Positions 42,652-47,206 of a DNA stretch of 64,000 nucleotides are shown here, piece after piece. Made by a program: the position numbers and the translations under genes. Source of the DNA: Guptibacillus hwajinpoensis (lineage in GTDB: Bacteria > Bacillota > Bacilli > Bacillales > Bacillaceae_O); assembly GCA_016841765.1 (NCBI GenBank), contig JAENYN010000021.1, positions 1 to 64,000 of the forward strand. The letters run 5' to 3'. The first letter of the stretch is position 1; each line of letters starts with the position of its first letter. The notes beneath the pieces were generated by a model that saw nothing but the letters and a program-made list of their open reading frames with translations, did not search any database and was not told the DNA's origin.

Positions 42652-43863
42652 TTATTCGAGTTTTACCCTCAGGGGCCGGCCAAGCTTGCGCAAAGACGGA
42701 TGTAAAAGGAAATAGACGGTAAAAACGAGATATCCGCCTCCCGCGAGATAAAGAGTCAGCATTCCCGAGCTGATTTCACCCAGCAAGCCTCCAAGAAAAT
42801 AACCGGCAGGGCTAAGCGACCCTAACAGCGATGATAAAAAGGCAAAACCGATTCCGATATACTCATCCGGCATGTTCACTTGGATTAACGTCTGTATATA
42901 AATACTGAGAATCCCAATCCCATCCCAGGATAAGAAGAAAAATCCATATGGAAGGATGGACAAATCGCTCGACAAAAACGCGAGCAGCCAGCTTATACCG
43001 GAAATCAAGGAGACAGCAGGCATGATCCGGTTAAGCGGAAAGTTTTCCAGAGGGCTGGACAGTACGGTACCGGTCAAAGTGCCTCCGGACATCGCTGCCA
43101 GCCAGAAGCCGTATTCAGCCGGCGTTGGTGAAATGATTGGCAGCATGGCAATCCCCATCGTTGCTGTCACATTTATGGCAATGACACCGGCAAGGATTGC
43201 GAGCAGTGTCTGCTGCTTTTTTATGGCAATATATCCGTCAATAAAATCCTTCCGATATTGCTGGAAAAAAGGATACGATGGAGGCTGTTTCTCCTTATTT
43301 GTTTTAGGCACAGCCAGGAAGAAGAAAAACAACAATCCGGTAGCGATGAGAAGCAAGCTGTTTGATACATAGATGAATCCAAGACCGATAAAGGCGATGA
43401 GAATCCCTGACACAGCATCTGCGAGCAGATCTAATGTCTGATAAGAAAAAGCAAAAATGGAATTCACTTTTGTCAGCTCTTCATCCGCAGATAACCGTTT
43501 GATCAGTGCATTTTCTGTAGGGTATGTGACCTCAGACAGTGTTAGTGCCATAAACATCAGCAAAAACAGAACCGGCAGCCATAGCATGCTGGTGAAATAA
43601 AGAATGCTGATGGCGCCAACTAAAATCCCCTGTCCGATTTCAGCCACATAAAGCAATTTCCGTTTCGAAAATCGGTCGATCAAAGGGCCATATAAAAATT
43701 GCAATGTTATCGGCAGCATGGCGACGGCACTTGTCAGGCCGACCAAAAAGGCGGAGTCTGTAGCTGACTTGACAAACCAGACCGTTGCAATCATATACAT
43801 GCTGTCTGCGATATTTGTAAGAATCCTGCCGCTTAATAAAATCCATAACTGTTTGTTCATCAT
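42652..43863 (-). CDS. MFS efflux transporter, DHA3/macrolide-type
   Basis: 403 residues with about twelve membrane helices. Opening WILLSGRILTNIADSMYMIATVWF, then the motif A-like loop GPLIDRFSKRKLLYVAEIGQ between helices 2 and 3 (described by its core, D-R-F-S-K-R-K), match the MefA/DHA3 family of drug/H+ antiporters. The C-half has PLENFPLNR and MPDEYIGIGFAFLSSLLGS. The GGAGGAGG SD 4 bases before the ATG is inside the hairpin at 43871-43914, and a short leader ORF lies further up, as in inducible antibiotic efflux genes. Actual drug unknown. Confidence 0.87.
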   Translation of the reverse strand: MMNKQLWILLSGRILTNIADSMYMIATVWFVKSATDSAFLVGLTSAVAMLPITLQFLYGPLIDRFSKRKLLYVAEIGQGILVGAISILYFTSMLWLPVLFLLMFMALTLSEVTYPTENALIKRLSADEELTKVNSIFAFSYQTLDLLADAVSGILIAFIGLGFIYVSNSLLLIATGLLFFFFLAVPKTNKEKQPPSYPFFQQYRKDFIDGYIAIKKQQTLLAILAGVIAINVTATMGIAMLPIISPTPAEYGFWLAAMSGGTLTGTVLSSPLENFPLNRIMPAVSLISGISWLLAFLSSDLSILPYGFFFLSWDGIGILSIYIQTLIQVNMPDEYIGIGFAFLSSLLGSLSPAGYFLGGLLGEISSGMLTLYLAGGGYLVFTVYFLLHPSLRKLGRPLRVKLE

Positions 43864-43870
43864 TATTCCT

Positions 43871-43914
43871 CCTCCGATATAAGTAGATCTGCTTAACGAT
43901 CAACTTATCGGAGG
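43871..43914 (-). promoter_or_regulatory. SD-sequestering hairpin upstream of the MFS gene
   Basis: On the minus strand the transcript reads CCTCCGATA-AGTTGATC...GATCTACTTA-TATCGGAGG: 9-bp perfect outer arms (CCTCCGATA with TATCGGAGG) and a further inner AAGT/ACTT-GATC pairing. The 3' arm contains the GGAGG that serves as SD for the MFS start. No T tail follows, so it is not a terminator; it would mask translation start. Confidence 0.75.
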
Positions 43915-43929
43915 GCCACGGACACAAGG

Positions 43930-43968
43930 TTAATGATCAAAAGGGTTTAAATGATAGATGGCAATCAT
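43930..43968 (-). CDS. leader peptide of the MFS gene (12 aa)
   Basis: ATG at 43968 with AAAGG 8 bases upstream, a 12-codon ORF reading MIAIYHLNPFDH and TAA at 43932-43930, 16 bases before the masking hairpin. The layout (SD, short peptide, hairpin hiding the next SD, efflux gene) is that of drug-inducible translational attenuators such as those of erm, cat and mef genes. The peptide itself matches none that I remember. Ribosome stalling on it would be expected to open the hairpin. That is inference from architecture. Confidence 0.65.
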   Translation of the reverse strand: MIAIYHLNPFDH

Positions 43969-44294
43969 CGAAACATCCTTTCTAAGAAATGGTAAAATAA
44001 TTGTTTCATATTTTGAATGAGAGTTCAATGAAGTGTTGATTTTTTAACAAGGGAATAGTGCCGTTCGTTGCCGGTAGTTTAATAGATTTTAGATTTTAAA
44101 CTCCCATCGTTTGTCTGTTCAACGGATGGCTGTGTTGATGAGGAAGCTAAACAAGTGAGGAAGAAAATTATACTGAATTTTCCATATTACCTTTCATAAT
44201 GGACAGAGCAAATAGGATACAATAGAATTGGTAGCCCGTCGAACAGGGTGGGGCAGACAGGTTTGAAAGGTTATTCAGAAAGGGTTGTGTTTTG
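43969..44294. other. divergent promoter region, no gene seen
   Basis: The left part should contain the promoter of the leader peptide/MFS transcript, the right part that of the membrane gene at 44295 (a GGATACAAT -10-like box near 44217). No hairpin or ORF of note besides. Confidence 0.4.
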
Positions 44295-44933: not shown

Positions 44934-44969
44934 AAAAATCCTGAGGAAGCATCACGCCTCAGGATTTTT
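44934..44969. terminator. bidirectional terminator
   Basis: AAAAATCCTGAGG and CCTCAGGATTTTT pair perfectly over 13 bp. On the minus strand the stem includes the last codons of the DHA2 transporter; on the plus strand it ends the small membrane genes. Confidence 0.9.
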
Positions 44970-46349
44970 AACGAAAAATGATATGACCAACCCGATGACC
45001 GCAGATATGCCGGCTACAAAGAACGATACATTTACTCCGTGTACCAGTCCGGCTGCACCTTCGTTCGGCAATGCGGCGGTCGACATGACTGTGACAAGCA
45101 GAGCGGTTCCGACGGCACCTGATACTTGCCGCATCGTATTGTTCATGGCTGTGCCGTGCGGAAGCAACTTGATCGGCAGGGCATTGAGTCCAGCGGTTGT
45201 GACCGGCATCATCACCATGGCGACACTAAGCATCCTGAATGCATTGACGATTGTCAAATAAGCGAAGGATGTCTCAGGTTTCAGGATTGTAAACAAAAAG
45301 GTCGAGATGGTCAGAAGGCTCAGGCCGATGATGGCCAGCCACCTGGCTCCGAATTTATCAAAAAGCCGTCCGGTGACAGGATTCATGAATCCCATAATGA
45401 GAGCACCCGGAAGCAGCATCAGGCCTGATTCAAAGGCAGTGTAGCCAAGCATGTTTTGCATGAGGAGCGGGAGAACGGTTGCTCCGCCTATCATGGCAAT
45501 GAATACGAGCATGCCTAGAATCGTAGAGAGAGTGAACATTTTATTTTTAAATACCCGGAACTCCAGGATTGGCTGTTTTAATTTGAACTGCCTTAAAATG
45601 AACAGCGTGAGCGCAACTGCGCCGACAATCATTGAAATGATGACTTGATTGCTTTCCCAGCTGGCGGACCCTGCCGTACTGAATCCATACAGCAAGCCGC
45701 CGAATCCGAGTGAAGACAAAATAATCGACAGGAAATCCACTTTCGGATACGTCTGCTTCGTCACATTTTTAAGAATGAAATAAGCGATGATGAAATCGAC
45801 GATCACAATCGGCAAGATGACATAAAACAAACTTCTCCATGGAAAATGTTCCACAAGCCAACCGGATAAAGTCGGACCGATTGCCGGTGCAAACGAGATG
45901 ACAAGACCGAACATTCCCATGGCAGAGCCCCGCTTGTTAGGCGGGTAGACAAGAAACAAGATTGTCTGCATAAGCGGCATGATGATGCCGGCGCCGGAAG
46001 CCTGAAGGATCCTCCCGATGAGCAAAATGGCAAAATTGGGCGAGATGGCGGCGACGAAGGTTCCGGCAGCAAAAAGACCCATAGCTGACAGGAACAGGGC
46101 CCTCGTCGTAAACCGTTCGATTAAAAAGGCGGTGATCGGGATCATCACCCCATTCACAAGCATAAAAATCGATGTCAGCCATTGGGCCGTACTGGCTTCG
46201 AGGTTCAAATCCCTCATAATATGAGGGAGTGCTGTCGCAAGCAGCGTCTGATTCAGGATTGCGGCAAACGCACCGGAAAGCAGAACGGCGATTAGCGGTG
46301 TTTTATTAACAGTTACATGCCCTTGTTCTGCATGTTCATTGTTTTCCAT
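44952..46349 (-). CDS. MFS drug efflux transporter, DHA2/EmrB (LmrB-like)
   Basis: 465 residues with about fourteen membrane helices. Features of DHA2 proteins: LNQTLLATALPHIMRDL, then TAQWLTSIFMLVNGVMIPITAFL (motif D1 region), motif C-like GPTLSGWLVEHFPWRSLFYVILP (described by its ends) and a long second half. The closest general type is B. subtilis LmrB/YhcA. AGAAAGAAGGAAAACC precedes the ATG. It lies 30 bases after the TetR gene in one operon, with twin palindromes in front of that gene, so expression is probably drug-inducible by derepression. Confidence 0.9.
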   Translation of the reverse strand: MENNEHAEQGHVTVNKTPLIAVLLSGAFAAILNQTLLATALPHIMRDLNLEASTAQWLTSIFMLVNGVMIPITAFLIERFTTRALFLSAMGLFAAGTFVAAISPNFAILLIGRILQASGAGIIMPLMQTILFLVYPPNKRGSAMGMFGLVISFAPAIGPTLSGWLVEHFPWRSLFYVILPIVIVDFIIAYFILKNVTKQTYPKVDFLSIILSSLGFGGLLYGFSTAGSASWESNQVIISMIVGAVALTLFILRQFKLKQPILEFRVFKNKMFTLSTILGMLVFIAMIGGATVLPLLMQNMLGYTAFESGLMLLPGALIMGFMNPVTGRLFDKFGARWLAIIGLSLLTISTFLFTILKPETSFAYLTIVNAFRMLSVAMVMMPVTTAGLNALPIKLLPHGTAMNNTMRQVSGAVGTALLVTVMSTAALPNEGAAGLVHGVNVSFFVAGISAVIGLVISFFVKNPEA

Positions 46350-46379
46350 TGGTTTTCCTTCTTTCTATCTAATGGTGTA

Positions 46380-46994
46380 TCAGGAGGGGCGTGTACTCAA
46401 ACCGGCTTTCAGCATTTCGATTTCATGCCTGTGTTTTTGCATTGCATCTTCCAACGTCAGCTCATTCGCGATGCTGTACACAAGGTTATGGAAGGTCACA
46501 GCCATAATGAGCTGCATGGCATGAAATAGCTCTTTTTCGGATGAAACGGAAATGATATCCATATCGATTAAAGGAAGCAATTCACTGTATCCGCCGCCGG
46601 ATGGCTCCCGGCCAAAAAAACGGGTCAATGCATGTTCGATTTTGTAATTCATATTTAGCAGGACATTTTTGATGAATTGATCCCGATCCTTTGCTTCTTC
46701 CAGGGATGATTGAAACAACTCTATCGTTGCCTCAAAGAGATCTCCATCCCACTTTCTCAACTTCGACATGAACTCTACATGCCGTTCCCGGGCATGCTCT
46801 TTCAAAAGATAAAAAAAGGCATCTTCCTTATCCTCAAAATACTGATAAAAGCTGCCTCTCGGTATGCCCGCTGTCTTAAGAATATTTGCAATGGAAGCTT
46901 CGTACAGGGAAACTCTCGTAAACTCTTTTCTGGCAGCCTCTATCAACGTTCTTCTTTTCTCTTCTTTCAAGTTATAAAAGGTTGGTTTCGGCAT
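46380..46994 (-). CDS. TetR family repressor
   Basis: 204 residues from ATG 46994; a longer frame upstream runs through the operator and has no SD. N-terminal HTH (about 8-55): TLIEAARKEFTRVSLYEASIANILKTAGIPRGSFYQYFEDKEDAFFYLL (described by its ends), where G-S-F-Y-Q-Y-F is the recognition helix ending typical of TetR. The rest (about 60-204) is a helical ligand domain. It precedes and is co-transcribed with the DHA2 pump, so it likely represses both through the palindromes at 47023-47067. Confidence 0.9.
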   Translation of the reverse strand: MPKPTFYNLKEEKRRTLIEAARKEFTRVSLYEASIANILKTAGIPRGSFYQYFEDKEDAFFYLLKEHARERHVEFMSKLRKWDGDLFEATIELFQSSLEEAKDRDQFIKNVLLNMNYKIEHALTRFFGREPSGGGYSELLPLIDMDIISVSSEKELFHAMQLIMAVTFHNLVYSIANELTLEDAMQKHRHEIEMLKAGLSTRPS

Positions 46995-47022
46995 ATTCGT
47001 ATTTCTCCCAATATTTATTAAA

Positions 47023-47067
47023 TGTGACAGACTGTCACAAAGGATAATGTTAAGTGACACCGTGTCA
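47023..47067. promoter_or_regulatory. twin palindromic operators for the TetR/MFS operon
   Basis: TGTGACAG-A-CTGTCACA (47023-47039) is a perfect 17-bp palindrome and TGACAC-C-GTGTCA (47055-47067) a perfect 13-bp one. They share the TGACA...TGTCA half-sites and their centres (47031 and 47061) are 30 bp apart, about three helical turns. They lie 29-73 bases before the TetR start. Confidence 0.75.
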
Positions 47068-47206
47068 TATGTCAACCGATTTGGTGTGCGCATACTTAGC
47101 CGCTGCAAGGGTGACAGCGGGATATTGTCATCCGCTTGAAACCTTTCTTTTCCAATTCCGTATAAGTAGTAACAGGCTGCCTGGATAAAAAAAGGAGGAG
47201 TTCATC

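Follow-up and report, generated by a model that had tools for sequence, protein, structure and literature searches.

A conserved leader with in-frame coding beyond its stop codon precedes an MFS pump gene of Guptibacillus hwajinpoensis: a candidate stop-codon-gated translational attenuator

Upstream of an MFS pump gene of Guptibacillus hwajinpoensis, we found a short leader ORF whose reading frame continues, past the leader stop codon, into a conserved Arg-Gly-Pro-Pro (RGPP) motif. The two proline codons of this motif constitute the first bases of the hairpin arm that masks the Shine-Dalgarno (SD) sequence of the pump. The region lies in a 64,000-nucleotide stretch of contig JAENYN010000021.1, hereafter the window, and is probably best explained as a stop-codon-gated translational attenuator. 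We also lean, a little more cautiously, towards a riboregulator that senses termination failure, in which the stop codon would be the sensor, the in-frame RGPP (or WKPP in one clade) the amplifier, and the Pro-Pro anti-SD arm the switch.

Results

A leader ORF and an SD-masking hairpin precede the pump gene

The gene located at 42652..43863 (minus strand) encodes a 403-residue MFS transporter, placed by profile matches in the H+-antiporter (TIGR00900)/Mef-like branch. It matches MFS_1 with an E value of 1.6e-20, TIGR00900 with 5e-28, which is below the cut-off of this model, and Mef(A), distantly, with 3e-7; no solved-structure relatives were found by sequence. Translation would start at ATG 43863 or, by homology, at ATG 43860. 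The initial annotation had described an SD, a 12-codon ORF, a stop and an SD-masking hairpin on the minus strand ahead of this gene, and this organization was confirmed at 43983-43863. The leader SD AGAAAGGATG (43974..43983, minus strand), with purine-rich counterparts similarly placed in the homologues, is followed by the leader ORF MIAIYHLNPFDH-stop (43930..43968, minus strand), whose 12 codons run from ATG 43968 to TAA 43930.

Folding and sequence place the 5' (anti-SD) arm of the hairpin at 43903..43914 and the 3' arm at 43871..43884 (both minus strand), the latter including the first GGAGG upstream of the MFS ATG 43863. The arms CCTCCGATA...TATCGGAGG form 9 perfect base pairs, as had been proposed, and can be extended to 12 bp if a 2-nt bulge is allowed (43914-43903/43884-43871), the extended arms being written CCTCCGATA(AGT) / (ACT..)TATCGGAGG. 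The pump SD GGAGGAGG (43868..43875, minus strand) keeps its final AGG outside the stem. Folding of the 131-nt region yields -38 kcal/mol (z -3.6), a value equalled by 1 of 200 shuffled sequences. No terminator-like site was found before the pump, the hairpin being followed by AGGAATAATG; the element is a translational attenuator devoid of a terminator U-run. No Rfam match at gathering score was obtained within the window.

The conservation of the leader and of the hairpin, which the initial annotation had left to be checked, was observed for both in 28 further loci, where counterparts of MIAIYHLNPFDH* stand before an orthologous or related MFS pump. The resulting 29 loci, 17 of which belong to one genus-level clade and which are therefore not independent cases, comprise 25 from the group of pump relatives and 4 from f62, a distant family with pumps just 32-38% identical to that of locus L020. 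The relatives include a same-genus genome (81% identity), Rossellomorea aquimaris (64%) and more genomes of the order; no copies of the pump were found on plasmids or in viruses. Since the inner stems share no sequence relationship and are misplaced in the MAFFT alignment, RNAalifold gave no consensus pairs on it, and the hairpin of each locus was folded separately instead. An SD-masking hairpin was thus found at all 29 loci, with a mean z of -5.0 (range -2.5 to -12.3).

A covariance-model search of samples of the order, class and phylum recovered the leader only before this pump family and at two decayed copies, the remaining matches (e.g. L051, L078) being weak and chance-like. For instance, the weak match in L051 (about 1523-1560, reverse complement), MILFYFKRLDH-stop with an SD but no RGPP, precedes an unrelated gene starting MQLYSLKIEGFRRHL and is probably due to chance. 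In the decayed copies, L076 (1510-1866) and L019, leader and pump are broken together; L076 still encodes a post-stop RGPP (CGA GGT CCA CCT), and in L019 the frame remains readable, with RSPP. Five pump relatives are leaderless (L034, L035, L039-L041). In L034, whose pump shares 47-48% identity with its relatives, a plain GGAGG without any leader precedes the gene, indicating that the control element can be lost.

Two further observations concern the surroundings of the leader. A block TATGAAACAATTATTTTACC at 44010-43991 (minus strand), which reads TATGAAATAATTACC in relatives, about 17 nt past a TTGAA hexamer, probably represents a conserved promoter from which leader and pump are transcribed together; its score did not reach the cut-off in the promoter scan. 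A second efflux system adjoins the region at 44952-47108 (minus strand), namely a DHA2-type MFS pump (LmrB-like, E 9e-116) preceded by a TetR regulator that carries a TetR_C_19 domain.

The leader end is conserved and carries an acidic penultimate residue

Leaders vary from 8 to 12 codons among the loci, and their C-terminal ends follow the consensus [NKC]P[FS][DE]H-stop, or LNDI-stop in the f62 clade. In the window this end reads NPFDH-stop (43930..43947, minus strand), and KPFDH, NPSDH, NPFEH and CPFEH occur as variants. By parsimony, changes in the last six leader codons are distributed 1/2/25 over codon positions 1, 2 and 3, i.e. nearly all are third-position, showing that this segment is selected as protein. 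The residue at position -2 is acidic in 29 of the 29 leaders (D in 26, E in 3) as against 8 of the 69 long ORFs of the window; D or E is also found at -2 in 11 of the 29 pumps themselves. The leader stop is UAG at 20 loci and UAA at 9, UGA being used at none. No known drug-arrest motif is present in the leader, and a literature search found no paper naming NPFDH as a leader peptide.

Coding selection resumes beyond the leader stop

Read on in the leader frame, the sequence past the leader stop encodes the extension PCVRGPPIS-stop (TGA; 43900..43929, minus strand). It contains RGPP, a RAPP-type arrest motif (PMC12992588) encoded here by CGT GGC CCT CCG (43909..43920, minus strand), which was absent from the initial annotation. 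A post-stop motif occurs in the leader frame at all 29 loci: RGPP at 11, RPPP at 1, WKPP at 16 and FKPP at 1. RGPP is spread over deep branches of the pump tree, while the WKPP group makes up one clade of 17. The spacing between stop and motif is 9, 12 or 15 nt depending on the clade (three to five codons), and in each case divisible by 3. We also considered that ribosomes might reach the motif by frameshifting, but rejected this because leader and motif are in one frame.

The R, G, P and P codons of the 12 RGPP/RPPP loci carry 2/1/17 changes at the three codon positions by parsimony (P=2.8e-6 against one third), and the Arg codon itself varies between CGT, CGA, CGC and AGG. No such periodicity is seen in the four codons past Pro-Pro (16/18/18), nor is it significant in the 3-5 linker codons (6/7/11 in the RGPP group). 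In the WKPP group, the third-position excess is weaker (11/14/25, P=0.011) because the stretch also pairs. A stop codon (UAA or UGA) directly follows the motif in 17 of the 17 WKPP/FKPP loci versus 1 of the 11 RGPP loci. As judged from these substitution patterns, RGPP is under selection as protein, even though a stop closes the frame upstream and no start codon is conserved. Hence, an R(A/G)PP motif under coding selection upstream of a regulated gene is present in the 12 RGPP/RPPP loci, and no uninterrupted uORF surrounds it, since UAG or UAA precedes the motif in 29 of 29 loci.

The same bases could also be maintained as a pure RNA element, with CGNGGNCCNCC and TGGAARCCNCC kept solely to form the 5' strand of a longer hairpin over the SD and start codon, and RGPP/WKPP merely incidental. 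Indeed, base pairing between Pro-Pro and the SD is seen at nearly all loci, and several WKPP loci additionally pair TGGAAACC with GGATTTTCA. On the other hand, 17 of the 20 changes in RGPP are third-position, CGN/AGG included, every spacing is a multiple of 3, and CGNGG is largely unpaired in the f62 clade. Furthermore, in most RGPP loci the first Pro codon has a third base that does not pair with the A of GGAGG, and therefore pairing does not explain CCN CCN. We consider this explanation quite unlikely.

A ribosome on the motif, but not at the leader stop, is predicted to free the pump SD

Exposure of the pump SD was predicted by refolding the RNA with a ribosome footprint reaching +15 from the P site. 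Over the 29 loci, the free RNA has a mean exposure of 0.24, which stays at 0.24 when a ribosome stands at the leader stop and rises to 0.61 when it stands at the motif; the latter position gives the greater value in 29 of 29 loci. The pump SD, masked in all loci, is thus predicted to be freed by a ribosome on the Pro-Pro codons. In the window locus, the first Pro codon lies 51 nt from the pump ATG, a distance that, judging from an estimated ribosome size, would accommodate a second ribosome for initiation.

These values bear directly on attenuation of the erm/cat type, the layout suggested initially, in which a drug-bound ribosome stalling within MIAIYHLNPFDH or at its stop would open the hairpin. 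The part of this proposal that stands is the translated and conserved leader with its SD-sequestering hairpin; the masked SD and the strong conservation of NPF[DE]H, as for a nascent-chain sensor, both fit it. The switching step does not hold. A ribosome whose A site holds the leader stop does not reach the 5' arm, its edge being still 5-11 nt away, and a stall on the 12 codons leaves SD exposure unchanged, the predicted fold contains no competing anti-hairpin helix, and coding selection on the post-stop RGPP/WKPP is left unexplained. Given the difference in SD exposure between the two ribosome positions, a stall in the leader fails on geometry, whereas a post-stop stall fits, and erm/cat-type attenuation appears unlikely. 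Induction of the pump by an antibiotic is plausible.

Discussion

Proposed mechanism

Since the selected codons of the arm lie downstream of the leader stop, ribosomes would have to pass this stop. By default, in the stop-codon-gated attenuator that we favour, ribosomes would finish the 8-12-codon leader at UAG or UAA, the hairpin would hide the MFS SD and the pump would stay off. The trigger would be failed termination, caused by a release-blocking or miscoding antibiotic or by some other source of readthrough. Some ribosomes would then go on in frame for 3-5 codons to Arg-Gly-Pro-Pro, or to Trp-Lys-Pro-Pro-stop in one clade, and would be arrested when the P and A sites hold the two Pro codons. 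Jammed on the anti-SD arm, such a ribosome could keep the hairpin open and allow translation of the pump. If the arrest is very stable, rare readthrough could suffice for a long-lived ON state. In the WKPP-stop clade, the stall may take place at the second stop, as in human AMD1; a literature search found no published arrest at WKPP-stop.

Several properties of the individual steps are documented. RGPP is the most robust of the RAPP-like arrest motifs, is refractory to EF-P and is active in B. subtilis (Fujiwara et al., PMC12992588); its arrest needs little upstream sequence and tolerates varied N-terminal sequences (PMC12992588). In RAPP-type stalls, RAP occupies the P site and Pro the A site (PMC10951233). 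Aminoglycosides, odilorhabdins, negamycin and apidaecin induce readthrough (PMC7544508), and UGA is leaky in B. subtilis, at about 6% (PMC7918605).

The acidic penultimate residue of the leader may weaken termination. Acidic residues at position -2 reportedly favour readthrough, according to Mottagui-Tabar and colleagues (EMBO J, 1994), with which the invariably acidic residue of the leaders agrees.

The main objection to the stop-gated mechanism comes from loci L020, L021 and L032, where a second in-frame stop (UGA) separates UAG from RGPP, so that two stops would have to be passed. Moreover, the stop is UAA, as a rule the tightest of the three, in nine leaders. The double stop would be bypassed without readthrough if ribosomes terminated at the leader stop and restarted at a near-cognate codon just before RGPP/WKPP, and the codon preceding R or W is indeed often ATT, ATC, ATA, GTG, ATG or CTG. 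However, this codon is TCC, TGC, GTC or GTT in several loci, with no conserved start, an SD is absent there and the peptide would be just about 5 residues long, making reinitiation very unlikely.

A literature search found no description of this leader, nor of readthrough followed by arrest in any bacterial leader. If the stop-gated attenuator is confirmed, it would, as far as this search shows, be the first bacterial regulatory leader to use stop-codon readthrough and then programmed arrest, and would serve in nature as a sensor of failed translation termination. The place of the MFS pump behind such a sensor would imply export of a termination-blocking or miscoding antibiotic, and the element could serve as a reporter for termination-inhibiting and miscoding antibiotics. 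It would also mean that arrest motifs hide past stop codons, where uORF surveys based on annotated ORFs miss them.

Comparison with known systems

The erm/cat and fexA attenuators similarly consist of a short SD-led leader ORF followed by a hairpin hiding the SD of a resistance or efflux gene, and their switching on likewise needs a ribosome on the 5' arm. The present element differs from them by its conserved NPF[DE]H-stop leader end and by its proposed stall site, located in frame past the leader stop and not inside the ORF. The E. coli toiL uORF also acts via SD occlusion and senses several classes of ribosome-targeting antibiotics, but its stalls occur within the uORF at several codons, and a post-stop coding element is absent (PMC12121999). 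Transcription attenuators of the mef/mel and bmr type share a leader peptide before a Mef-like MFS pump; they act, however, via a terminator, and none was found here.

The RAPP/RGPP arrest peptides (ApdA, ApdP, ApcA, the S. lividans RGPP uORFs and CruR) resemble the proposed mechanism in that an arrested ribosome opens downstream RNA (PMC12992588, PMC10951233). In these known cases, the motif is part of an open uORF that mostly also encodes a secretion or membrane signal, and regulation is by pulling or metals (PMC12992588, PMC10951233), whereas here it stands past a stop codon, at the end of a chain of 15-20 residues. The RGPP survey reported such uORFs as absent from many Gram-positive groups, Bacillota included (PMC12992588); this absence is presumably due to the use of predicted proteins.

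The nearest concept to a stop-gated arrest is the readthrough-stall of human AMD1, which combines a stop, conserved in-frame coding and a programmed stall at a second stop (PMC13025110), comparable to the WKPP-stop clade. A conserved coding signal past the stop, as in AMD1, is found here at the motif, where the ribosome may stall. The AMD1 system is eukaryotic, places its stall 384 nt past the stop and limits the output of its own mRNA (PMC13025110), whereas the element described here is bacterial, carries its motif 9-15 nt past the stop and is proposed to switch on the next gene.
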